Positions 43,732 to 64,000 of a stretch of DNA of 64,000 bases are shown here, one piece after another; the stretch's first letter is position 1; every line of letters starts with the position of its first letter. Under the pieces are notes generated by a model. It was not told the DNA's origin, did no database searches, and was given only the letters and a program-made list of their open reading frames with translations. The translations under genes and the position numbers were made by a program. This DNA comes from Styela clava (taxonomy: Eukaryota; Chordata; Ascidiacea; Stolidobranchia; Styelidae), in NCBI RefSeq assembly GCF_964204865.1, contig NC_135263.1, positions 9,593,426 to 9,657,425 on the forward strand. The letters are read 5' to 3'.

Positions 43732-45179
43732 TAGGGTTGCCAACCGTCCTTTATTTCAAAGGACAATCCTTTATTTGAGATTTTTGTCCTTGTCCTTTTT
43801 AAGATGATAATTGTCCTTTATTTCTTCCAACGTCGTTTTGCGCGATAGTTATAGAACTGTGTTTGATATTGTTCCGTTCTTTATTCGCCTTCGTTCATGT
43901 ATTTGCAAGCTTTCAATTATTCTTTTTAATTTCGCTTTGGTCCGGCCAACGACTAACATACCGGTCCGGCTCAAATAGCCAAAGAAATACCAATTTTTTA
44001 ACATTTCAAATATTTTACATTAATTTTCCGAAGATGGCAAGTGGTAACACTCCAAGAAGCGTCGAAAAAAGAAGATTCGATTAATTTCAAATTATTTCTT
44101 GCGGAAGTAACAAATATAAATGAGTTTAAAACAAATGTATGGAATTCGCTGAGGAATAATTCTCAGTTTAGTTTCAGCTAAATGTAATTAAAGTAAAATC
44201 GTCTTTTAATTAAAATTAAATTTATGTTTATTGTTTTAGTAATAACTTCATTAAATGCTTTGTTCAGTATTTCAATATTAAATTTTTAATGAAAATCATG
44301 GAACCCCCAATAAAGATAAAGAAGCGCGTGTGTTCATTTAATAAAGACTGGAAAATGACTATGATTGGTTGAGAGAAACTAGTAATCCACAAAAGGCAAA
44401 ATGTATCACTTGTAAAAGTGATTTTACTATTGCATACATGGGTGCTTTAGCAGTAGCACAACATGCAAAATCAGCCTGTCACAAAATTAGAATCATGGAT
44501 TTTGCTTCATTTTCTGTAATGGATAAATTTTTGGTGAAAAAAATTCAGATGAAGAGGATATTGCAGTTGCTTTAGAAATAGTTCAAGTATATCACGTAAT
44601 TAAACATAGTCATTCATATAACTCGCTGGATTGTGGATTGAAATTGAATTCGAAAATTTACAAGGATTCAGAAGTTGCTACCAAAGTATCTAATAGTCGA
44701 AGCAAATACGAGGCAATCGTCACAAATGTGCTAGGTGAGAAGGCATTATCAGTGATTATGAACGATTTGAAACAACATGATCCTTTGTTAATTTTGACAT
44801 TCAAACTGATGCTTCAAATCACAAAAACATGAAAATGTTTCCAGTCTGTGTTCAGTATTTTAGCTTGGAACATGGCACAGTTACTTATATTATTGATTTC
44901 TTCGAGAATGCAGATGAAAGTGCGGATAGAATGTTTACTTGTTTGAAAAACACTATGGACAATTTACAACTTGACTGGAAAAGGGTTTCTTGTTTAAGTG
45001 CAGATAACGCAAATTGCAACTTTGGAGAAAAACATTTTCTTTATACTAATGTTCGCACACTAAATGATGGTATTTTTAGGGCTAACATTTTTTTATATTG
45101 TTCTTTCCTGCAAGTTACAAAATAAACGATGACGGTAATTTATGTCCTTTATTGGGACTTTTTATAGTTGGCAACCCTA
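43732..45179 (+). mobile_element. Nested hAT element with transposase relic, 1448 bp
   Basis: Inverted ends TAGGGTTGCCAAC and, at the right edge, GTTGGCAACCCTA. Perfect 8-bp duplication CTTGTATC at 43724-43731 and 45180-45187. It also lies inside 42492-45518 and carries a broken transposase gene on the plus strand. Confidence 0.92.
44290..45125 (+). pseudogene. Degenerate hAT (ZBED-like) transposase fragment
   Basis: Three pieces in different frames: a BED-type zinc finger (CITCKSDF followed by HAKSACH, about 44396-44480), a middle piece (about 44638-44810: YEAIVTNVLG, LKQHDPLL), and a catalytic-core piece (about 44800-45070: NHKNMKMFPVCVQYF, DWKRVSCLSADNANCNFG). Frameshifts near 44360 and 44800 separate them. 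The C-terminal dimerisation domain of hAT transposases is absent. The element cannot move by itself. Confidence 0.8.
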
Positions 45180-47351: not shown

Positions 47352-49518
47352 ATGCCTAACGTCAATCTCGCTCGTTACAATGGAAAAGAAGAATACCCAG
47401 ATTTGGAAAAACACAACAATCACATGGCTCACTGCCTTACCGAAGACATTTACAAAAGGATGAGAAGCAAGGAAACACCCAGCGGATTTAACATCGACGA
47501 CTGTATTCAAACTGGTGTCGACAACCCAGGTATGGTAATGTTATTTATCTACTAAATTCTTACTTATACAATGTAGAACTTCCTTTAAACCCGCCAATGG
47601 TTGTCAACCTCGTCTTGAACAAACATGCAAAAAGCACTAACCACAAGATTCTGACAAAACACTATGCAGGATATTGCCAGAATTAGTAATACATAATCAC
47701 CGAAATTCGAACTGTTGTTATTTCGAATATAATCCAAACTATTACATCATTTTGTACACTATCTTCATACTGACGTGAAATATTTGGTTATGACATTCTA
47801 CAGGTCACCCTTTCATTATGACGGTCGGTTGTGTAGCAGGAGACGAGGAATCGTACGAAACGTTCGCTGAATTATTCGACCAAGTGATTGAAGCCAGACA
47901 CAACGGTTACAAGAAAACAGATAAACATAAGACCGATCTCAACCCAGAAAACTTGAAGGTATTCACAATATTGTACAAGGTTATGCTAACTAATGATGTA
48001 ATTTTTTGATATATTAATGGTTTATATTCAAAATATCCTTTTAGGGAGGAGATAAATTAGACGAGAAATATGTTTTGTCTTCCCGTGTACGAACCGGACG
48101 AAGCATTCGCGGATATTGCCTTCCTCCGCACTGTACCCGCGCTGAGCGCCGAAAGGTCGAAGAAATTTCGTGCGAAGGTAACTTTCTAAAACCATTTATC
48201 ATACTTTTGTAAGATAGAACACAGAGAAAAGCAAAATATATATATTTCCGCAATTTGACAAATAAAAAGTGAAAAATTATTAGGAATATTTTTTCATAAC
48301 GAGTCCGCGATGACGGTATGGTGAATATATTCGTGTTGTATTGCCAATGTTCACATTTGAATATTTTCAGTATTTTTTTCCCTTTAGTTTATATAGTATT
48401 CTGGAATTATTCTATTTTTTGCGTAGCAATATATCAAATCAATACCAATATAATGTTTACTTATACTTTTCTTGTACTTTTCAGCTCTTGCCAAGCTTGA
48501 TGGAGAATTGAAAGGAAAATATTATTCACTGGCTAAGATGACTGATCAAGAGCAAGAGAAACTCATTGCAGATCATTTTCTTTTTGACAAGCCAGTCTCC
48601 CCATTGCTTCTATCTTCTAAAATGGCCCGAGATTGGCCAGATGCTCGTGGAATTTGGTAAGTCAATAATAGGCTTTTTCAAATGATAACATTTCATGAAT
48701 TTAGACGGTATGTTTGAAGCTAGGTATCAAAAGAGCAGCAAAGACTTACATAAATACGTCGTTCCGGTATACATACTTGATTTGCAATCGATATCGTGTG
48801 GCGGCCGACATGATTTATTTTCTCGTTTTCAAATAGGCACAACGACAAGAAAAACTTTCTTGTCTGGATCAACGAAGAAGATCATTTGAGAGTTATTTCG
48901 ATGCAGAAAGGAGGGAATATGAGAGAAGTTTTCTCTCGTTGGTGCGAGGGACTTGGCGAGGTAACATAAATATAGATCTGAGCTCATTCGATTGCATTTC
49001 AGCTTTTCATGTGAAACTAGCGGTTTAGCTGTGATTTAAATAAACATAACAATATTTTAACAGTTTGAAAAGCATATCAAGTCGGCTGGGTACGAATACA
49101 TGTGGAATGAGCACCTCGGCTACATCCTGACTTGTCCAAGCAACTTGGGTACTGGAGTTCGTGCGGGCGTTCATTTGAAAATCCCCCTACTTTCTCAACA
49201 TCCAAAATTCGAAATGCTTCTTAAGAAACTCCGGCTTCAAAAACGGGGAACTGGTACGGCAGTATTTTTATGTTTTCTAAAATATGTTATTATTAGTTTT
49301 ATAACAAATTTATTAAATAATTTGTTTTTTCAGGCGGAGTAGACACCGCGGCTGAAGGCGGTACTTTTGATATCTCAAACGCTGATCGACTGGGATTCTC
49401 CGAAGTAGAACTAGTCCAAATGGTAATAGACGGAGTAGAATTTATGATCAGCTGTGAGAAGAAATTGGAATCCGGACAGAGCATCGACTCAGACGTCGAC
49501 AAACAGAAGCAAAAGTAG
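47352..49518 (+). CDS. CK: Cytosolic-type creatine kinase
   Basis: Seven exons: 47352-47529, 47804-47958, 48045-48177, 48485-48656, 48837-48960, 49064-49253, 49334-49518; phases agree, giving 378 residues, the normal length. It transfers phosphate between ATP and creatine. There is no transit peptide, so it is cytosolic type. The N-terminal helical domain runs to about residue 100 ([20 protein letters not shown]). The catalytic domain has [68 protein letters not shown] with the catalytic Glu pair, the reactive-cysteine motif CPSNLGTG, and the specificity loop RGTGGVDTAA. All catalytic residues are in place. The final exon is present again twice downstream as orphan copies. The poly(A) signal is at 49941. 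Confidence 0.98.
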
Positions 49519-49940
49519 ACTGATGCACCAACTATCTTTCACAAAAGTTTACGGTCTTCATCTAAATTTATCATATAGATAGATTATGCTATAATGTCTG
49601 CAACTATTATAATATATTACCTGCATGATTTACCGGTTATTTATCGATATTATCACACCCCATATATTTATTTGTCATTTAATTAGTATAACATTTCCAT
49701 ATAAGTAATTATAAACATTTAAATATTTATTTTTGGTTCTAAATATGTGATTTTTACTAGTATTAGAAAATTAGGTTACCGTAATTTAACATCACACTTT
49801 CGTTTGACGGATCCCTAGTTTTCTATATGTGTGATTTCATAATTCATTATTTTATTTCGGTTTTAATTATTTAAATTGGTAATATTTATGAGTTTAATAT
49901 TATGTTACTTAATGTTAAGTTAGAAAAATTATTAGTTATA

Positions 49941-49946
49941 AATAAA
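49941..49946 (+). terminator. Poly(A) signal of creatine kinase
   Basis: AATAAA about 0.42 kb after the stop codon. The same site recurs after the orphan exon in unit 2 (near 55854); unit 3 reads ATAAAAAAAA at this place. Confidence 0.55.
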
Positions 49947-50623
49947 ATATCATCATCTAGTACTTGATCTTTGGTTATAATATACCGAGCAACCAACAGC
50001 TATGTGAGGGATGAGGCGACGCGACAAGTAGATTACTGAAAAAGAAAGCGGATCATACCGCCAGCGCAGTCGAAGAAATTATCCTGGGTTAATGACACCT
50101 TCTTACTGTACATGTCTGTCCATGTCTATGTACTGTCCATCACCTACCTCTATTGATTGGCGGCTTTCGGTTCGGGTGTTATACCTATATATACTTCCTA
50201 TTGTAACATACAATTGATGCAGCCACCATTCAGCACGGTCATAACACGGTACAGTTATCCAGTAAGCCCAATTGCAAATCATGAAGATATGTACAACTTT
50301 ATTTTCAAATGTTACATCAGCATAATTATCTCTTGTTCTTTATCGGATAATAATGGAAAACGTGTGTTGTCACTTTTTTATTGTTGTCATACGAATTCCT
50401 TTCATACATATATATATAAAATTTCAAGAGCATCAATTACAATATTTACCATTAATGACATTATTATAGCGAACATTTAAATAGAATATTAAACAAAAGT
50501 CACATTTCTAGTGAGCATGCAATGGATCAACACTTTCACTAATTTATAAATAATGCTTGGTTGAATAGTAAGTAAGCATTCCTTGAATATAGTGGATTGA
50601 AGTGTATCGACGAAAAGTATGAT

Positions 50624-52225
50624 CTATGTTTGAGGCGTTTTGATTATATCTTTATTCAATTCTTTTGCTATAACCTCTCCTACTTGTGAACCTGTGGCCA
50701 GATCAGTTCCATTTGACTTCTGTTTTTTCGGACCTGCAGTAAAAGCGACAATAATTGTTGAGTGGAAAGTTTATAAAAATCTTGAATCCAGTAAAGAACC
50801 AGTTAACACTATTTTATTTACAGGTAAGTAAGTAAGATTAATAAGTAAATGATACTCACATAATTTACAGCAAAATCTTACTGCGTAGTCCTCACAGCAT
50901 ATTCCCTCCGGTTGTTTTTCATTCTTGCAAATTAGGCCAACCTGAGTGTCCACCACCATGTCAACATTGCCACCCGATTGCCAGGAGTCCTGAGTTGCCA
51001 CAACAATGGCATCAATCGCAGTTGGTTTCTCACATACCTTGTCCTGGTTTTGGCTTACCAGATCTGACAAAAGCTCGTAGTCGCCTGTACTGTCGGTAGG
51101 ATCATCTACGTCATACCAGTCTGTCCAATCGTAGCCTTCTTCGTCGCACTTCGGCACTGCAATGAATACAAAAAAGTCATGTGGCCAGTTAGATAACATC
51201 TCAAATACCAAATAATATTGAATAGTTAACAGACGACATTGCCTTTAAAGGGCTTGTGTGGCGTATGGCAAATAAAGTGAATGAAAATTCCATCCAATGT
51301 AAACTTACATTTCGGACAGCAGAATCTGATTTTCAGATCTGGGCATTTTCTATCTCCTCGGTCATTGATACAGGCAACTCCTCCAGTGGGAGGATAAATA
51401 ACCAACTGTTGCGCCAATGGTGGTGGATCATTGGGATTTACCAACTCAAAGTGTTGCGCCACTGGATTCTCACATGGTTTCCTAGGAAAAGACGACCATG
51501 TCTCCCAATCACCAGTTACGCTTGGATCATCCCTGTCTAACCAACCGCTCCAATCCCCGTTTTGACATTTAGGAATAACACCGAGTTCTGTGACATACCA
51601 AAGATATTAGTTACAAATTTGAAAGATAAAAAAAAAATTAACAAACACTAAAATAGATAAATACAAGTATAAATGGGTTGACCCATTTTCAAACACACGT
51701 TTTTCGCTACAAATATTTATTGTCATTTTCAGATAAATCGTAAATGATATTATTGTATAGCATAATTTTGGCCATAATCCATACGTCAGCGCACTTGTAT
51801 TCTAACTAAAGTACAGGATTTGTAAATCAACATTTTCTCATGTTAAACGAGTTTAAACGGAGAAATTGATATAAATTTTAATAAAACATTTGTTTAACTA
51901 AATGGGAGTATTTGTGCTTATGTGGCCTGGTAGGGCACTGGTCTAGCAACCATTATTACCTAATGAAATTATTTTTTAAAATTTTTTAATCGTCACTGTT
52001 GTCGGAGATACCAAAATGCGAGCTGTATAAGATGTATAAGAATTTAGAACCTTTCAAACAATGTATTAAATAATTCTCGTGAAGATTATGTGCCTTCTTG
52101 TAATAAATTCGGTGTGTAAATTGTAAAATTTTGTATTATATTGTAAAAATATACTTACGGGCACTGCTCTGATCCACGAACATCAACACAGTAAAACAAC
52201 AGGACAAAATAATTTTGAACATCAT
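50624..52225 (-). CDS. Secreted protein with two WxxW domains, copy 1
   Basis: Four minus-strand exons, all phase 1: 52225-52159, 51587-51309, 51156-50860, 50733-50624; 250 residues. Residues 1-22 form a signal peptide (MMFKIILSCCFTVLMFVDQSSA). Two domains of the mucin-type WxxW family (Pfam Mucin2_WxxW; also in CILP and mucins) follow, one per exon. Domain 1 has CQNGDWSGWLDRDDPS, GVACIN and KIRFCCP. Domain 2 has CDEEGYDWTDWYDVDDPTDS, GLICKN and CCEDYAVRFCCK. The last exon is a short tail (CPKKQKSNG). Paired cysteines and the W..W motif are intact. A TATA box (CTATAAAG, 52300-52293) lies about 70 bp upstream. The family is extracellular or mucus-associated; the exact role is unknown. It is tail-to-tail with creatine kinase exon 7. 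Intron 3 (126 bp) has a stop codon in this copy. Confidence 0.9.
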
Positions 52226-54120
52226 TTTTTAGCGATTTCGTTATTTGTTCAAGTTTAAAACAAATAGGTATGGCAAAAGTCGGTGCTGCTAGCTTTATAG
52301 TAAAATAGTTCCGGTAATGAATCATTATATTAACCGCTGCTTGTTTTTGTAATAATAAAAAAAAGATGAGTAAAAATTACTCAATCAACTATTAGTGCAC
52401 ATTAATTAAAACTGCATAATTAAGAAAATTATATTCAAACGCAAATACGGTTTATTTAAACGTGTGTTACATCAACATGTATTAAACAGTTTTAAAGTGC
52501 AGCCTGTAATTTAGATCGACAACCGACAACCCAGTGTTCAAACTAGATGGTATTACATAACCGAATGAATCGAGGCGCAGTACTTACCACTTCATGGCGG
52601 CTCCCGCCACGAACGAACCGCGCCGTCACTTGCCATGATTTTATGGCGGTAGCACCGGTATATTCACACAGTCATGTAACAGTTTTAGTTTTCCATGCGG
52701 AATTATATCTACTTAAACCTGGAACCTAACCCCAAATTAATCAAAACTGTATCCATAAGGAAGATGTTCCATTTTACCCAAAGTTTGTCACCATAAGGTA
52801 TTCTGCCATTACAGCCTACATGCTATGATTTGTGGAAGCTCAGTTTTACCCACCATGGTTTTCAATTTGATTTTACGCTGCCTCACGCCATTGGTTTGTG
52901 GCAGCCAAAAAATCAGCCGCCATTAACATAAAAAATTATCTCAATTCCGCATAGCTTGGTCGAACTTTATCGGCAAATATTTATTTGGTAGGATTCAAAA
53001 TTTTTGGAATTTGTTACCAATGTTTTGTTGAATGACTATCACTACCTGAATACGTTTCGACATAGGAAAACTATAGAGGATGTTTGTGTTTAATACACAG
53101 ATGCAAGAAAAATAGAGTGCGGCTGTCTTCAAGTTTTAAAAAAATTAAACCAAAAAATCACTGCGTCGCACTATCGGCCTTCAATTTGTTAATTGTACGC
53201 ATTTTTCATTTCTATAGAGGTATAGAGAACAGGAAATATTTATTCCGCTATCGCAAAATGCGAGATAAACGCACACTAACTAATAAGTAATGCATTTCCA
53301 CCTATTATAAAAGTATTTTTATTACGAATAAAAGTTTCATAACAGACCGTGTTATTCATATATATAATATGAAAAGTCAAAAAATTTTCAGATGTCTCAG
53401 TAATATTCAATATTCTCGTCCAACTACGCTTCCTTATTAGACATTGTTATTCCTGTCTATTGGCCAGTGATATAACTAACTACCGACGGGTGGTTTCATC
53501 TTGAGCCAATTTACGCCAATAAAATGTTGGTGTGCATATGTGTGGTAGCACTAACATTAAATAATATTGTAAAAATTGTCTGATATTTCCTTGCGACCGA
53601 TTTGATTTTCAAACGGGAAACAAACGGGCGACGTGAATGATCGTGAATTATTAAAGGAAGTAAATGACGAATAACTCAAATATTTGATTTAGTTATACAA
53701 GATCCTTTCTTTCAGAGCAGGAAGTAAGACGTCCGAAAGTATCGTTTCGTCTCAATTTATTCTTCACAATCAACTTTGCAAACGATTGAAGCGTAATGGA
53801 CCGTCATATAGGTACAAATGATCTTTTTCAATTACAAATAGTCTCACAGGTTGGTGAAGAAAATGCAAAGCATTACAAAATTTTGACAAATTTGGTCGGG
53901 ATGGGAATTTGTCCCCAATAGCCATTTGAATTAGTCAAAATCAAGGCTTTTCAGTATAACTCTGGCGTACATGAAAAGCTAAAGATGAAGGCGCACCAAT
54001 TCAGTGTTGACTAGCTTTACCATAGATATCTTTCATCAAAATCTATGCCAATGGCTAACATCTTTTCAGGATAAATATTATACAAACAAGAAAGTAGACC
54101 AATAATTGACGCCAAACAAC
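52226..54120. other. Unit 1 spacer upstream of the WxxW gene
   Basis: Contains the WxxW promoter (TATA at 52293-52300), then non-coding DNA. On the minus strand near 52600 is GCCGCCATGAAGTG/GTAAGT, a strong start context followed by a donor-like site. Its phase does not fit the WxxW exons, so I do not call it. It is nearly identical to 58892-60788 in unit 2. Confidence 0.5.
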
Positions 54121-54371
54121 CAGGGGCCTAGCCAGAAATTTTCAAAGGCGGGTGTTCTGAATTTTTTTGCCAAGTTAGATCGAAACCGCTAGCGGGTCCG
54201 ATCGAACGCTGGAATAGGCGTGTTTTTAGTAGTCTTGGGGGCCTAAAAAGCATTTCAAGTTACAGAAAATTGCTATATTTGATACAGAAAAATGATTTTA
54301 TTTTTTTTGTATTATAAAAAAAGGGGGGGGGGGGGGGTCGACCCGCCAACCACCCCCTGGTTACGCCACTG
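54121..54371. mobile_element. hAT-like MITE in unit 1
   Basis: 251-bp element with ends CAGGGGCCTAGCC and, from the right, CAGTGGCGTAACC. Flanks CAAACAAC (54113-54120) and CAAACAAT (54372-54379) agree at 7 of 8. It contains a poly-G run near 54325. The same insertion is in unit 2, so it predates the duplication. Confidence 0.75.
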
Positions 54372-55224
54372 CAAACAATAGACTTTGTGCCAATTTACAA
54401 AAAATTTATTAAACGAATTCATTCAAATCATTATCACTCTTTCTATCTCAGACAATATTTTCAAAATCTCCGGGCTACGTATTAAAATATGTTTGGCACC
54501 CTTTCAATATCTTGGAATTCCATATTCATTAATTTTAACCACTGATGCCACTAATTGTTTTCACCTACCTTTCAATAAATTACTTTGTATACAAAAATGC
54601 AAGCCAATTTAGGCGACACTAAAACATCAAAAACCAGAATAATTTTATTGGAGAACATTTTCATATATAAAGGCTCTTCACAACCTGTCACTCATAAGTT
54701 ATGAGGTGGTATGCCTCAGATTTAGAATGACCAGAACCTTTCCATTTCGGCATCTTATACATTCAATTTTATCAGCTGTAGGTAGGCTAAGTAAGCTAGT
54801 GGACATGGGTTGAACATCAGATCAAAACTGACATCCTCAACATGGTTAAATCCAAATCAGAGACCATTAGTACACTCCAAAATCAAGGAACACCACACTT
54901 CGAAACATTTATTTCACGCTTTCCTAAGAATGGATGTCAGATGAAGCATTTCCAGACATGCCTTTTATAAAATTCGGACACTCAATGAAAAGGATTACAT
55001 GGGAACACAGAGAAACCTAACTCAAGGCCTACGTTTCCAGTGCATGCTGAAAAAAGCATTCGCCTTGTGACCTGGCTCCGAATTTACAGTCTTGAATATT
55101 CGCGCATTGACCAATTTGGCCGCCGTAATATCGAGAATAATAATAGGCAGTCTTTTTATATTTGATAAAATATGTTATATCCATTATTAGTTTTATAACA
55201 AATCTAAATGATTTGTTCTTTCAG

Positions 55225-55409
55225 GTGGAGTAGACACCCCGGCTGACTGTGGTACTTTTGATATCTCAAATGCTGATCGACTGGGATTCTCGGAAGTAGA
55301 ACTAGTCCAAATGGTAATAGACGGAGTAGAACTTATGATCAGCTGTGAGAAGAAATTGGAATCCGGACAGAGCATCGACTCCGACATCGACAAACAGAAG
55401 CAAAAGTAG
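55225..55409 (+). pseudogene. Orphan creatine kinase terminal exon, unit 2
   Basis: 185-bp copy of creatine kinase exon 7 with intact acceptor (TTCTTTCAG), the same entry phase and the same stop. It encodes [15 protein letters not shown] then the rest of the C terminus with few changes (A to P, E to D, G to C, F to L, V to I). No exons 1-6 lie upstream in this unit. It is either a non-functional relic or an alternative last exon reached from exon 6 at 49253. Confidence 0.85.
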
Positions 55410-55875
55410 ACTGATGCAGTTTTCCCACTACCTTTCACAAAAGTTTACGGTCTTCATCTAAATTTATTCTATAGATTATGCTATAATGTCTGCAACTAGT
55501 ATATATTACCTGCATGATTTACTGGTTATTTATTGATATTATTACACCCATATATATATTTATTTGTCCCATTCACGGTATATATTTGTTTCGGCTATTC
55601 AACTAGTATGACATTTCCATATAAGTAATTATTAACATTTAAATATTTATTTTTGGTTCTAAATATGTGATTTTTTACTAGTATTAAGTTACCGTAATTT
55701 AACAGCACACTTTCGTTTGACGAATCCCTAGTTTTCTATATGTGTGATTTCATAATTCATTATTTTATTTCAGTTTTAATTATTTAAATTGGCAATATTC
55801 ATGAGTTCAATATTATGTTACTTAATGTTGAGTTAGAAAAATTATTAGTAATAAATAAAATATCATCATCTAGTA

Positions 55876-56602
55876 CAGGGGTTCTCAGCCTGGGGTTCGC
55901 GAACCCCCAGGGGTTCACGAGAAAATTTTCAGGGATACTTGGAAGACAGTTGAGTTTTCGTGTGTTGCTATTTTTTAATATCCTTTAACGAAGAAAGTAA
56001 CTAGAAGAGGAAAACAAGAGAGCTACGCCCAAATATATGGACACGTCTATCGCAGTACAGTACGGTTTACCGTACCGTCAGATCACAGTCTACAAATATA
56101 TTCACACCAAGCGAAGCTGCACAGTAGGACACAAAATGGCGTCCGATGTCCGCTGAACGTTTAATGACGTCATAGCAAACAAAAACAAATCTCACAGAGC
56201 TATCAGAAATATTTGAAATGAAAAAAAGTAATAGCCTTCTGGGGAAAAATATAATCTTTACTCACTGAAAATTTCAAAGCAATTGGTCCAGTAATCAACG
56301 AGAAAAGCGATTTTTTTCATAACGATACCAAGAAGAAGACAAATAAGAACAAGAACAACAAAAATACCAAAACGATCGTTATGTCCACTAACGTGTCCAA
56401 TAAGTACAAACTGAAACTCAGCGTACATTTTCCCTGATCTTACGTTGTTGTGATTGAGACGCAAGAATGTGCAGCAAATTGTTAGTCAATATGTCACGAT
56501 TCAGTTTGGTGTCTGATAACTGGGGGTTCGCGTTGATTGTTTCGTGACCCGGGGGGGGGGGGGGGGGGGGGTACTTAACAGAGAAAAGGTTGAGAACCCC
56601 TG
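55876..56602. mobile_element. hAT element inserted in unit 2 only
   Basis: 727-bp element with inverted ends CAGGGGTTCTCAGCC and GTTGAGAACCCCTG and a perfect 8-bp duplication ATCTAGTA (55868-55875, 56603-56610). Unit 1 (near 49958) and unit 3 (near 62545) have the uninterrupted site. It contains a long poly-G run near 56550 and no transposase. Confidence 0.95.
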
Positions 56603-57027
56603 ATCTAGTACTTGATCTTTGGTTATGATATACCGAACAACCAACAGCTATGTGAGGGATGAGGCGACGCGACAAGTAGATTACTGAAAAAGAAAGCGGA
56701 TCATACCGCCAGCGCAGTCGAAGAAATTATCCTGGGTTAATGACACCTTCTTACTGTACATCCAAGAACCATCACCTCTATTGATCGGCGGCTTTCGGTC
56801 GGGTGTTATACCTCTACGTTTTAATGTAACATGCAATTGATGCAATCACCATTCAGCACGGTCATAACACGGTACAGTTATCCAGTAAGACCAATTGCAA
56901 ATCATGAAGATACGTACAATTTCATTTTTAAATGTTACATCAGTATAATTATCTTTAATTCTTTATCGGATAATAATGGAAAACGTATGTTGTCTCTTTT
57001 TTATTGTTGTCATACGAATTCTTTTCA

Positions 57028-57052
57028 TACATATATATATATATATATACAC
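57028..57052. repeat. TA/CA microsatellite
   Basis: A (TA)n run followed by ACACAT near the WxxW gene 3' flank. It is shorter in unit 1 (near 50410) and intermediate in unit 3 (near 62970), so it varies in length between units. Confidence 0.7.
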
Positions 57053-57260
57053 ATAAAATTTCAAGAGGATCACTTACAATATCTACCATTAATGACATTA
57101 TTATAGCGAACATTTAAATAGAATATTAAACAAAAGTCACATTTCTAGTGAGCATGCAATGGATCAACACTTGCACTAATTTATAAATAATGCTTGGTTG
57201 AATAGTAAGTATGCATTCCTTGAATATAGTGGATTGAAGTGTATCGACGAAAAGTGTGAT

Positions 57261-58891
57261 CTATGTTTGAGGCGTTTTGATTATATCTTTATTCAATTCT
57301 TTTGCTATAACCTCTCCTACTTGTGAACCTGTGGTCAGATCAGTTCCAATTGGCTTCTGTTTTTTTGGACCTGCAGTAAAAACGACAATAATTGTTGAGT
57401 GCAAAGTTTGTAAAAGACTTGAATCCAGTAACGAACCAGTTAACACTATTTTATTTACAGATAAGTAAGTGAGAATAATAAGTAAATGATACTCACATAA
57501 TTTACAGCAAAATCTTACTGCGTAGTCCTCACAGCATATTCCCTCCGGTTGTTTTTCATTCTTGCAAATTAGGCCAACCTGAGTGTCCACCACCATGTCA
57601 ACATTGCCACCCGATTGCCAGGAGTCCTGAGTTGCCACAACGATGGCATCAATCGCAGTTGGTTTCTCACATACCCTGTCCTGGTTTTGGCTTACCAGAT
57701 CTGACAAAAGCTCGTAGTCACCTGTACTGTCGGTAGGATCATCTACGTCATACCAGTCTGTCCAATCGTACCCTTCTTCGTCGCACTTCGGCGCTGCAAC
57801 GAATACAAAAAAGTCGTGTGGCCAGTTAGATAACATCTTAAATACCAAATAATATTGAATAGTTAACAGACGACATTGCCTTTAAAGGGCTTGTGTGGCG
57901 TATGGCAAATAAAGTGAATGAAAATTCCATCCAATGTAAACTTACCTTTCGGACAGCAGAATCTGATTTTCAGATCTGGGCATTTTCTATCTCCTCGGTC
58001 ATTGATACAGGCAACTCCTCCAGCGGGAGGAAAAATAACCAACTGTTGCGCCAATGGTGGTGGATCATTGGGATTTATCAACTCAAAGTGTTGCGCCACT
58101 GGATTTTCACACGGTTTCCTAGGAAAAGACGACCATGTCTCCCAATCACCAGTTAAGCTTGGATCATCTCTGTCTAACCAACCGCTCCAATCCCCGTTTT
58201 GACATTTAGGGATAACACCAAGTTCTGTGACATACGAAAGATATTAGTTACAAATTTGAAAGATAAAAAAAAATTAACAAACACTAAAATAGATAAATAC
58301 AAGTATATATGGGTTGCCCCATTTTCAAACACAAGTAAAAGCAATCGTTCACCGTATTTTAATCGTTTTTCGCTACAAATATTTATTGCCATTTTCAGAT
58401 AAATCGTAAATGATATTATTGTATAGCATAATTTTGGCCATAATCCATACTTCAGCGCACTTGTATTCTAACTAAAGAACAGGATTTGTAAATCAACATT
58501 TTCTCGTGTTAAACGAGTTTAAACGGAGAAATTGATATAAATTTTAATAAAACACTTGTTTAACTAAATGGGAGTATTTGTGCTTATGTGGCCTGGTAGG
58601 GCACTGGTCTAGCAACCATTATTACCTAATGAAATTATTTTTTAAATTTTTTTAATCGTCACTGTTGTCGGAGATACCAAAATGCGAGCTGTATAAGATG
58701 TATAAGAATTTAGAACCTCTCAAACAATGTATTAAATAATTCTCGTGAAGATTATGTGCCTTCTTGTAATAAATTCGGTGTGTAAATTGTAAAATTTTGT
58801 ATTATATTGTAAAAATATACTTACGGGCACTGCTCTGATCCACGAACATCAACACAGTAAAACAACAGGACAAAATAATTTTGAACATCAT
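57261..58891 (-). CDS. Secreted protein with two WxxW domains, copy 2
   Basis: Same four-exon structure as copy 1: 58891-58825, 58224-57946, 57793-57497, 57370-57261, 250 residues. Signal peptide and both WxxW domains are intact. Compared with copy 1 there are a few changes, for example the residue joining exons 2 and 3 (Leu to Ala), and PIGTDLTTGSQ in the tail. Here intron 3 (126 bp) has no stop and keeps the frame, so a retained intron would add 42 residues between KLC and PKKQK. TATA box CTATAAAG at 58970-58963. Lies between an orphan creatine kinase exon and the spacer of unit 2. Confidence 0.9.
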
Positions 58892-60788
58892 TTTTTAGCG
58901 ATTTCGTTATTTGTTCAACTTTAAAACAAATAGGTATGGCAAAAGTCGGTTTGTGCTGCTAGCTTTATAGTAAAATAGCTCCGGTAATGAATCATTATAT
59001 TAACCGCTGCTTGTTTTTGTAATAATAAAAAAAAGATGAGTAAAAATTACTCAATCAACTATTAGTGCACATTAATTAAAACTGCATAATTAAGAAAATT
59101 ATATTCAAACGCAAATACGGTTTATTTAAACGTGTGTTACATCAACATGTATTAAACAGTTTTAAAGTGCAGCCTGTAATTTAGATCGACAACCGACAAC
59201 CCAGTGTTCAAACTAGATGGTATTACATAACCGAATGAATCGAGGCGCAGTACTTACCACTTCATGGCGGCTCCCGCCACGAACGAACCGCGCCGTCACT
59301 TGCCATGATTTTATGGCGGTAGCACCGGTATATTCACACAGTCATGTACCAGTTTTAGTTTTCCATGCGGAATTATATCTACTTAAACCTGGAACCTAAC
59401 CCCAAATTAATCAAAACTGTATCCATAAGGAAGATGTTCCATTTTACCCAAAGTTTGTCACCATAAGGTATTCTGCCATTACAGCCTACATGCTATGATT
59501 TGTGGAAGCTCAGTTTTACCCACCATGGTTTTCAATTTGATTTTACGCTGCCTCACGCCATTGGTTTGTGGCAGCCAAAAAATCAGCCGCCATTAACATA
59601 AAAAATTATCTCAATTTCGCATAGCTTGGTCGAACTTTATCGGCAAATATTTATTTGGTAGGATTCAAAATTTTTGGAATTTGTTACCAATGTTTTGTTG
59701 AATGACTATTACTACCTGAATACGTTTCGACATAGGAAAACTATAGAGGATGTTTGTGTTTAATACACAGATGCAAGAAAAATAGAGTGCGGCTGTCTTC
59801 AAGTTTTGAAAAAATTAAACCAAAAAATCACTGCGTCGCACTATCGGCCTTCAATTTGTTAATTGTACGCATTTTTCATTTCTATAGAGGTATAGAGAAC
59901 AGGAAATATTTATTCCGCTATCGCAAAATGCGAGATAAACGCACACTAACTAATAAGTAATGCATTTCCACCTATTATAAAAGTATTTTTATTACGAATA
60001 AAAGTTTCATAACAGACCGTGTTATTCATATATAATAGGAAAAGTCAAAAAATTTTCAGATGTCTCAGTAATATTCAATATTCTCGTCCAACTACGCTTC
60101 CTTATTAGACATTGTTATTCCTGTCTATTGGCCAGTGATATAACTAACTACCGACGGGTGGTTTCATCTTGAGCCAATTTACGCCAATAAAATGTTGGTT
60201 TGCATATGTGTGGTAGCACTAACATTAAATAATATTGTAAAAATTGTCTGATATTTCCTTGCGACCGATTTGATTTTCAAACGGGAAACAAACGGGCGAC
60301 GTGAATGATCGTGAATTATTAAAGGAAGTAAATGACGAATAACTCAAATATTTGATTTAGTTATACAAGATCCTTTCTTTCAGAGCAGGAAGTAAGACGT
60401 CCGAAAGTATCGTTTCGTCTCAATTTATTCTTCACAATCAACTTTGCAAACGATTGAAGCGTAATGGACCGTCATATAGGTACAAATGATCTTTTTCAAT
60501 TACAAATAGTCTCACAGGTTGGTGAAGAAAATGCAAAGCATTACAAAATTTTGACAAATTTGGTCGGGATGGGAATTTGTCCCCAATAGCCATTTGAATT
60601 AGTCAAAATCAAGGCTTTTCAGTATAACTCTGGCGTACATGAAAAGCTAAAGATGAAGGCGCACCAATTCAGTGTTGACTAGCTTTACCATAGATATCTT
60701 TCATCAAAATCTATGCCAATGGCTAACATCTTTTCAGGATAAATATTATACAAACAAGAAAGTAGACCAATAATTGACGCCAAACAAC
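58892..60788. other. Unit 2 spacer upstream of the WxxW gene
   Basis: Near-identical copy of 52226-54120. A ~30-bp stretch between exon 2 and exon 1 of the WxxW gene (near 58335-58365) is present here and absent from unit 1, which shifts the offset between units. No gene seen. Confidence 0.5.
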
Positions 60789-61040
60789 CAGGGGCCTAGC
60801 CAGAAATTTTCAAAGGCGGGTGTTCTGAATTTTTTTGCCAAGTTAGATCGAAACCGCTAGCGGGTCCGATCGAACGCTGGAATAGGCGTGTTTTTAGTAG
60901 TCTTGGGGGCCTAAAAAGCATTTCAAGTTACAGAAAATTGCTATATTTGATACAGAAAAATGATTTTATTTTTTTTGTATTATAAAAAAAAGGGGGGGGG
61001 GGGGGGTCGACCCGCCAACCACCCCCTGGTTACGCCACTG
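60789..61040. mobile_element. hAT-like MITE in unit 2
   Basis: Copy of the MITE at 54121-54371, at the equivalent place and with the same flanks; the poly-A/poly-G run differs by one base. Confidence 0.75.
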
Positions 61041-61893
61041 CAAACAATAGACTTTGTGCCAATTTACAAAAAATTTATTAAACGAATTCATTCAAATCAT
61101 TATCACTCTTTCTATCTCAGACAATATTTTCAAAATCTCCGGGCTACGTATTAAAATATGTTTGGCACCCTTTCAATATCTTGGAATTCCATATTCATTA
61201 ATTTTAACCACTGATGCCACTAATTGTTTTCACCTACCTTTCAATAAATTACTTTGTATACAAAAATGCAAGCCAATTTAGGCGACACTAAAACATCAAA
61301 AACCAGAATAATTTTATTGGAGAACATTTTCATATATAAAGGCTCTTCACAACCTGTCACTCATAAGTTATGAGGTGGTATGCCTCAGATTTAGAATGAC
61401 CAGAACCTTTCCATTTCGGCATCTTATACATTCAATTTTATCAGCTGTAGGTAGGCTAAGTAAGCTAGTGGACATGGGTTGAACATCAGATCAAAACTGA
61501 CATCCTCAACATGGTTAAATCCAAATCAGAGACCATTAGTACACTCCAAAATCAAGGAACACCACACTTCGAAACATTTATTTCACGCTTTCCTAAGAAT
61601 GGATGTCAGATGAAGCATTTCCAGACATGCCTTTTATAAAATTCGGACACTCAATGAAAAGGATTACATGGGAACACAGAGAAACCTAACTCAAGGCCTA
61701 CGTTTCCAGTGCATGCTGAAAAAAGCATTCGCCTTGTGACCTGGCTCCGAATTTACAGTCTTGAATATTCGCGCATTGACCAATTTGGCCGCCGTAATAT
61801 CGAGAATAATAATAGGCAGTCTTTTTATATTTGATAAAATATGTTATATCCATTATTAGTTTTATAACAAATCTAAATGATTTGTTCTTTCAG

Positions 61894-62129
61894 GTGGAGT
61901 AGACACCCCGGCTGACTGTGGTACTTTTGATATCTCAAATGCTGATCGACTGGGATTCTCAGAAGTAGAACTAGTCCAAATGATAATAGACGGAGTAGAA
62001 CTTATGATCAGCTGTGAGAAGAAATTGGAATCCGGACAGAGCAACGACTTCGACGTCGAGAAACAGAAGCAAAAGTTGACTGATGCAGTTTTCCCACTAC
62101 CTTTCACAAAATTTACGGTCTTCATTTAA
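61894..62129 (+). pseudogene. Orphan creatine kinase terminal exon, unit 3
   Basis: Copy of creatine kinase exon 7 with intact acceptor and phase. The ancestral stop codon has become TTG (62076-62078), so the frame runs 17 codons further ([17 protein letters not shown]) to TAA at 62127. It shares PADCG with unit 2 and adds I to N, S to F, D to E changes near the end. No upstream exons in the unit. Confidence 0.8.
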
Positions 62130-63195
62130 ATTTATTCTATAGATTATGCTATAATGTCTGCAACTAGTATATATTACCTGCATGATTTACCGGTTATTTA
62201 TTGATATTATTACACCCATATATATATTTATTTGTAACATTCACGTTATATATTTGTTTCGGCTATTTAATTAATATGATATTTTCATATAAGTAATTAA
62301 AAACATTTGAATATTTATTTTAAGTTCTAAATATGTGATTTTTTACTAGTATTAGAAAACTAAGTTACCGTAATTTAATATCACATTTTCGTTTGACGAA
62401 TTCCTAGTTTTCTATATGTGCGTTTCATAATTCATTATTTTATTTCAGTTTTCATTATTTAAATGGGCTATATTCATGAGTTCAGTATTATGTTACTTAA
62501 TGTTGAGTTAGAAAAATTATTACTAATAAAAAAAATATCATCATCTAGTTCTTGATCTTTGGTTTATATTATACCGAGCAACCAACAGCTATGTGAGAGA
62601 TGAGGCGACGCGACAAGTAGTAACTTAAAAAGAAGGCAGATCATACCGCCAGCGCACTCGAAGAAATTATCTTGGGTTAATGACACCTTCTTACTGTACA
62701 TCCAAGAACCATCACCTCTATTGATCGGCGGCTTTCGGTCGGATGTTATACTTATACGTTCTATTGTAACATGAAATTGATGCAACCACCATTCAGCACG
62801 GTCATAACGCGGTACAGTTATCCAGTAAGCCCAATTGCAAATCATGAAGATATGTACAATTTCATTTTCAAATGTTACATCAGCATAATTATATTTAGTT
62901 CTTTATTGGATAATAATGGAAAACGTATGTTGTCACTTTTTTATTGTTGTCATACGAATTCCTTTCATACATATATATATATACACATAAAATTTCAAGA
63001 GATCACTTACAATATTTACCCTTAATGACATTATTATAGCGAACATTTAAATGGAATATTAAACAAAAGTCACATTTTTATAGTGAGCATGCAATGGATC
63101 AACACTTGCACTAATTTATAAATAATGCTTGGTTGAATAGTAAGTAAGCATTCCTTGAATGAAGTGGATTGAAGTGTATCGATGAAAAGTATGAT

Positions 63196-64000
63196 CTATG
63201 TTTGAGGCGTTTTGATTATATCTTTATTCAATTCTTTTGCTATAACCTCTCCTACTTGTGAATCTGTGGTCAGATCAGTTCCAATTGGCTTCTGTTTTTT
63301 TGGACCTGTAGTAAAAGCGACAATAATTGTTGAGTGCAAAGTTTGTAAGAGACTTGAATCCAGTAACGAACCAGTTAACACTACTTTATTTACAGATAAG
63401 TAAGTGAGAATAATAAGTAAATGATACTCACATAATTTACAGCAAAATCTTACTGCGTAGTCCTCACAGCATATTCCCTCCGGTTGTTTTTCATTCTTGC
63501 AAATTAGGCCAACCTGAGTGTCCACCACCATGTCGACATTGCCACCCGATTGCCAGGGGTCCTGAGTTGCCACAACAATGGCATCAATCGCAGTTGGTTT
63601 CTCACATACCATGTGCTGGTTTTGGCTTACCAGATCTGACAAAAGCTCGTAGTCGCCTGTACTGTCGGTAGGATCATCTACGTCATACCAGTCTGTCCAT
63701 TTGTACCCTTCTTCGTCGCATTTCGGCACTGCAACGAATACAAAAAAGTCGTGTGGCCAGTTAGATAACATCTCAAATACCAAATAATATTGAATAGTTA
63801 ACAGATGACAATATTTTTAAAGTGCTTGTTTGGCGTATGGCCAATGAAGTGAATGAAAATTCCATCCAATGTAAACTTACATTTCGGACAGCAGAATCTG
63901 ATTTTCAGATCTGGGCAATTTCTATCTCCTCGGCTATTGATACAGGCAACTCCTCCAGCGGGAGGAAAAATAATCAACTGTTGCGCCAATGGTGGTGGAT
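63196..64000 (-). CDS. Secreted protein with two WxxW domains, copy 3 (5' truncated)
   Basis: Exons 63728-63432 (second WxxW domain: CDEEGYKWTDWYDVDDP, GLICKN, CCEDYAVRFCCK) and 63305-63196 (tail) are complete. The exon ending at 63881 runs off the right edge, so signal peptide and most of domain 1 are not visible. Acceptor of exon 4 reads TACTACAG instead of TACTGCAG. Intron 3 is again 126 bp, open and in frame, as in copy 2. No disabling change is seen in the visible part. Confidence 0.85.

Follow-up and report, generated by a model that had tools for sequence, protein, structure and literature searches.

A four-unit tandem array of WxxW genes and copies of a creatine kinase terminal exon in Styela clava

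How did copies of the last exon of a creatine kinase (CK) gene come to be repeated in tandem together with complete WxxW genes, and which parts of the repeated block are kept? The window, meaning the whole 64,000-nucleotide stretch of DNA that was analysed (C18:9593426-9657425), was joined to the next 29.6 kb of the same contig to give extended coordinates, neither stretch containing any N, and was compared with a genome of 376.6 Mb in 379 contigs. One partial GH6 match in that genome (PF01341, 35.4 bits against a cut-off of 27) is in keeping with a tunicate, tunicates being the animals known to have a cellulose synthase-GH6 gene. The array is very probably the product of a tandem segmental duplication of a two-domain WxxW gene, followed by exchange and conversion steps, in which the CK exon travelled as a passenger.

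The creatine kinase gene and the layout of the array

The gene at the left end of the array encodes a cytosolic-type creatine kinase with a near full-length match to the creatine kinase chain 1qh4_A (2.2e-192, residues 7-375 of 378), and PF00217 was matched in the CK exons scanned. From 49258 to the end of the window, repeat finding and self-BLAST of the 64-kb window revealed a tandem direct repeat, and a chance repeat is excluded because its pieces are 0.7-4.2 kb long and 87-98% identical. The initial annotation had described two full copies and one partial copy of a unit of ~5.9 kb. The array itself was borne out by these searches but the count was not, as BLAST on the extended contig gives four units in the present assembly (5,680-6,669 bp, with unit 4 truncated), of which U1 and U2 lie wholly and U3 partly inside the window (Table 1). 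At the right end of U4, the BLAST match to U1 stops at 72077 and similarity can be followed by eye to about 72.19 kb (C18 about 9.6656 Mb). When the first 2,743 bases of U1 were searched against the genome, seven matches were obtained, five of them within the array and representing its four units, with U2 split by an insertion; the other two, of 142 and 157 bases at 81% and 75%, fall at CK-encoding places elsewhere.

All units share one left boundary base. The earlier placement of the repeat start just past exon 6 was correct, in that exon 6 ends at 49253, the donor GT follows at 49254 and four intronic bases precede the first base of the repeat. The start lies inside intron 6, and about 76 bp of that intron are therefore part of each unit together with exon 7 and the CK 3' UTR, so that the terminal exon is indeed carried by every copy, but not "exactly" that exon as had been proposed. 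On the antisense strand, each unit also contains a complete gene whose product has two Mucin2_WxxW (CysD) domains and is putatively secreted. The claim of one complete antisense gene per copy thus holds for all four units, in each of which the gene has four exons, a 753-bp reading frame and intact GT/AG splice signals.

Other observations were made on creatine kinase sequences and on the flank of the gene. Two further creatine kinase genes were found close together by tblastn at C18:17433500-17443000, one matched over exons 2-7 and the second as the first five exons, up to where the stretch ends. At 5791-4659 of C1:10811000-10820500, a further CK copy is interrupted by several in-frame stops and is probably a pseudogene. 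Upstream of the CK gene in the window, the open frames at 44345-45122 resemble, by eye, a broken transposase-like gene.

Table 1. Coordinates of the units, genes, exons and other features (window positions; extended coordinates past 64000).
Feature	Position	Strand	Remarks
CK gene, cytosolic type	47352..49518	+	7 coding exons, 378 aa; GT-AG spliced translation open, 378 codons + stop
CK exons 1-4	47352-47529, 47804-47958, 48045-48177, 48485-48656	+	
CK exons 5-7	48837-48960, 49064-49253, 49334-49518	+	
Unit 1 (U1)	49258..55145	+	5,888 bp
Unit 2 (U2)	55146..61814	+	6,669 bp, including the 727-bp insertion
Unit 3 (U3)	61815..64000 in window, on to 67494	+	5,680 bp; ends 3.5 kb past the window
Unit 4 (U4), truncated	67495 to about 72190		beyond the window
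CK exon 7, unit 1, taken as functional	49334..49518	+	acceptor, frame and TAG stop; AATAAA at 49941
CK exon 7 copy, unit 2	55225..55409	+	intact acceptor and frame; differs from unit 1 at 5 amino acids
CK exon 7 copy, unit 3	61894..62129	+	stop codon lost; frame continues 17 codons
WxxW gene 1	50624..52225	-	exons 52159-52225, 51309-51587, 50860-51156, 50624-50733; 250 aa, two PF13330 domains
WxxW gene 2	57261..58891	-	exons 58825-58891, 57946-58224, 57497-57793, 57261-57370; 250 aa
WxxW gene 3	63196..64000 in window	-	exons 64760-64826 (beyond window), 63881-64159, 63432-63728, 63196-63305; intact, 250 aa
Conversion-like (homogenised) tract	51982..55291	.	near-identical to about 58.65-61.96 kb (U2 into U3); 9 mismatches
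727-bp insertion, U2 only	55876..56602	.	terminal inverted repeats CAGGGGTTCTCAGCC / CAGGGGTTCTCAACC; 8-bp target duplication ATCTAGTA

Retention of the WxxW genes and state of the extra creatine kinase exons

The N terminus of the protein of WxxW gene 1 is hydrophobic (mean hydropathy 2.77 over residues 5-17), which makes it putatively a secreted protein. Against a curated PF13330 cut-off of 22.4 bits, its two domains scored 76.1 and 42.3 bits, those of gene 2 scored 75.0 and 40.2, and the one exon scanned of gene 3 scored 76.0; in a profile search of the genome, both domains of all four genes were over the cut-off. Up to an E-value of 0.001, a scan of five WxxW-gene frames against Pfam returned PF13330 only. 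The second domain matches solved chains of MUC5AC, MUC5B and MUC2 (8ov0, 8oer and 6tm2, with E of 3.6e-07, 4.4e-04 and 0.007), which we take to be CysD domains, and the PF13330 match is what the array genes have in common with these mucins. In gel-forming mucins the CysD domains are accompanied by VWD domains and by a repeat region rich in Ser, Thr and Pro. The array protein, of 250 aa, reads as a hydrophobic N terminus followed by two WxxW domains and a short tail, and a repeat region of the mucin type was not seen in it.

The WxxW genes appear to be kept by selection. In the six pairwise comparisons, dN/dS (Nei-Gojobori) was 0.28, 0.41, 0.31, 0.47, 0.30 and 0.35, and coding divergence was 2.5-3.9% as against 5.2-8.7% for the CK 3' UTR and 5.4-7.9% for the stretch between the 3' ends of the two genes. 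The contrast is weaker when coding sequence is set against the introns of the same genes, intron 2 differing by 2.0-7.2% and intron 3 by 3.2-8.7%.

WxxW domains are not peculiar to the CK locus. The genome profile search gave at least 54 PF13330 matches, all over the cut-off and three with an internal stop, these counts being lower bounds that refer to exons or domains and not to genes. Eight of the matches are in the CK array and the other 46 are on C1, C2, C3, C4, C9, C10, C16 and C17, including at least one other tandem array, at C3:18628500-18638400, where WxxW-domain exons recur with a period of about 1.94 kb and identity of up to 96%; WxxW genes thus multiply in tandem elsewhere too. When four PF13330 regions on C3 were searched by tblastn with the WxxW protein, the best similarities were 72% over 25 residues and 50% over 34, with 23-43% for segments of at least 50 residues. 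Twelve WxxW matches on C17, C1, C4 and C3, some of them neighbouring, lie in open frames of 853-1029 codons, which could belong to a multi-copy or mobile gene; the array genes are short.

The extra copies of CK exon 7 are in a different state. One of the three has lost its stop (U3) and in another codon 33 of the aligned part is an in-frame TGA (U4), while the U2 copy is still open with an AATAAA. The acceptor is kept in all four units, and AATAAA or ATTAAA lies downstream of the exon in every one. Among the pairs of U2-U4, non-synonymous differences number 5, 5 and 8 against 1, 1 and 0 synonymous ones at about 140 and 37 sites, giving dN/dS values of 1.31 and 1.34 and, for the pair that lacks silent changes, no defined value; on these small counts there is no sign of purifying selection among the U2-U4 copies. 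Comparisons with U1 gave 0.32 for U2, 0.62 for U3 and 0.31 for U4, with 3.5-4.5 silent changes each, and the low U1-U2 and U1-U4 values, calculated from 4 and 4.5 silent changes, may be due to the constraint on U1 itself.

The direction of change was read against an outgroup, the CK paralogue on C18. By a hand count over the 15 variable exon 7 codons, U1 has a private amino acid absent from the outgroup at none, and the differences from U1 number five in U2, nine in U3 and six in U4, counting stop changes. Of these differences, the shared G8C and F36L are derived by this outgroup, and the U2 changes A5P, E7D, G8C and F36L (exon numbering) affect residues kept by both unit 1 and the C18 paralogue. 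The extra CK exons are therefore most likely decaying passengers, given the lost stop in U3, the in-frame stop in U4 and the excess of amino-acid changes over silent ones among U2-U4, and the enzyme most likely uses the exon of U1. They would ride along because one duplication breakpoint most likely lies in CK intron 6.

A change of substrate choice through the exon copies was also considered. Val325, the residue known for CK substrate choice, lies by that numbering in GGVD and offers no support for it, since GGVD is the same in 1qh4_A and in all four units. The E of TAAEGG, five residues past the Val325 site, is common to the CK paralogue on C18.

The conversion-like tract and the origin of the array

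Over about 3.3 kb, U1 and U2 differ by 9 mismatches (gaps not counted), with none over the last 1,759 bp, as compared with 27 in 51000-51981 on the left flank and 33 in 55292-55876 on the right. The tract extends past the unit junction and covers the beginning of exon 7. This pattern suggests recent interlocus gene conversion between U1 and U2, although another kind of exchange could be its source. A recent extra unit produced by unequal crossing-over would make the whole unit near-identical; because near-identity is limited to about 3.3 kb, conversion fits better than a recent crossover. The units also differ by insertions, one near 54.1-54.4 kb in U1 and U2 that is absent from U3, and the 727-bp insertion of U2, which is presumably a hAT-like non-autonomous element.

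The origin that we consider very probable would have begun with a duplication between two breakpoints, one in the last intron of the adjoining, convergently transcribed CK gene and the second within the spacer, upstream of the WxxW gene, so that every new unit would carry the CK 3' UTR along with exon 7. The number of units would then have risen to four by further unequal exchange, and the homogenised state of the U1 and U2 spacers may be due to gene conversion. Selection would retain the WxxW genes, which are presumably expressed, and the extra CK exons, being without upstream exons of their own, would decay, while CK itself would use exon 7 of unit 1 only.

Two other explanations have to be weighed against this origin. 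The downstream exons could serve as alternative CK terminal exons, with exon 6 spliced 6 kb on to the U2 exon or to a later one, giving other C-terminal ends. The acceptors and the polyadenylation-type motifs present in every unit are compatible with such use, and unit 2 keeps both frame and stop; against it are the missing stop of unit 3, the in-frame TGA of unit 4, the lack of visible purifying selection among U2-U4, of which U2 alone is open, and the four U2 changes at residues kept by unit 1 and the C18 paralogue. Alternative terminal exons are consequently very unlikely, and use of the unit-2 exon by itself as another last exon for CK would be, judged from sequence, marginally less likely again. 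If it were true, duplication driven by a gene for a secreted protein would have supplied a metabolic enzyme with a second form of its C terminus.

The array could also be an artefact in which haplotypes, or an over-long path through a repeat, were written in series. Heterozygous genomes can yield false tandem duplications, and the 1,759 bp over which U1 and U2 show no mismatch would agree with this. However, there are four units, the same junction of spacer and exon 7 is present three times, no N interrupts the stretch, most unit pairs diverge by several per cent, and there are private insertions, one in U2 only and one in U1 and U2 without U3. The repeated junction, the divergence and the private insertions are unlike two haplotypes, which lowers the worry of an assembly error without removing it. 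An artefact is the least likely of the explanations considered, and an error of this type could at most affect the number of units. As such, tandem segmental duplication with a passenger exon is retained as the preferred reading.

Known systems and meaning of the array

It had been stated at the outset that no locus with this layout was described. For the pair itself nothing contradicted the statement, as neither a creatine kinase gene beside a WxxW gene nor any account of WxxW proteins in tunicates was found in the literature searched. It does not stand for the kind of layout. According to the part of the published account drawn on here (PMC3161346), the human RCCX module (RP-C4-CYP21-TNX) of MHC class III has truncated RP2 and TNXA beside complete genes in tandem, with two units in most alleles and one or three in others, and both unequal crossover and gene conversion are reported. 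The likeness lies in tandem units that mix complete genes with truncated fragments of neighbours, and in the CK-WxxW array the unit boundary is inside CK, one intact CK stands at the end of the array and fragments are in the other units. As far as that account goes, RCCX differs in its genes, in a unit of about 30 kb and in being a vertebrate system, whereas the present array has one truncated neighbour and four units.

Similarly, partial duplicates are common in the sections of two surveys used here. Young duplicate pairs of C. elegans are complete in only about 40% (114/290) and among the duplications that segregate in D. melanogaster lines 76% are partial (PMC3449122), while in D. yakuba 1004/1116 duplications capture genes or gene fragments (PMC5460883). 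On these figures, duplications that ignore gene boundaries are common, as at the CK locus; the duplicates surveyed are mostly young or segregating, in contrast to the CK-WxxW case of a four-unit array that unites retained parts and decaying ones. The layout is real but ordinary, and the kind of event is well known.

The comparison of sequences gave no evidence of a functional coupling between the CK exon and the WxxW gene. The coupling that the initial annotation had read into the locus was not upheld, as the extra exons show no purifying selection when compared with one another and two of them are either broken or changed at the stop. Knowledge of the CK and WxxW families is unchanged by the array. 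For annotation it carries a warning, since exon-level searches give four creatine kinase matches for one gene. Its interest for biology is that one block brings together a selected gene and a seemingly unkept exon, and both can be compared within the same units.
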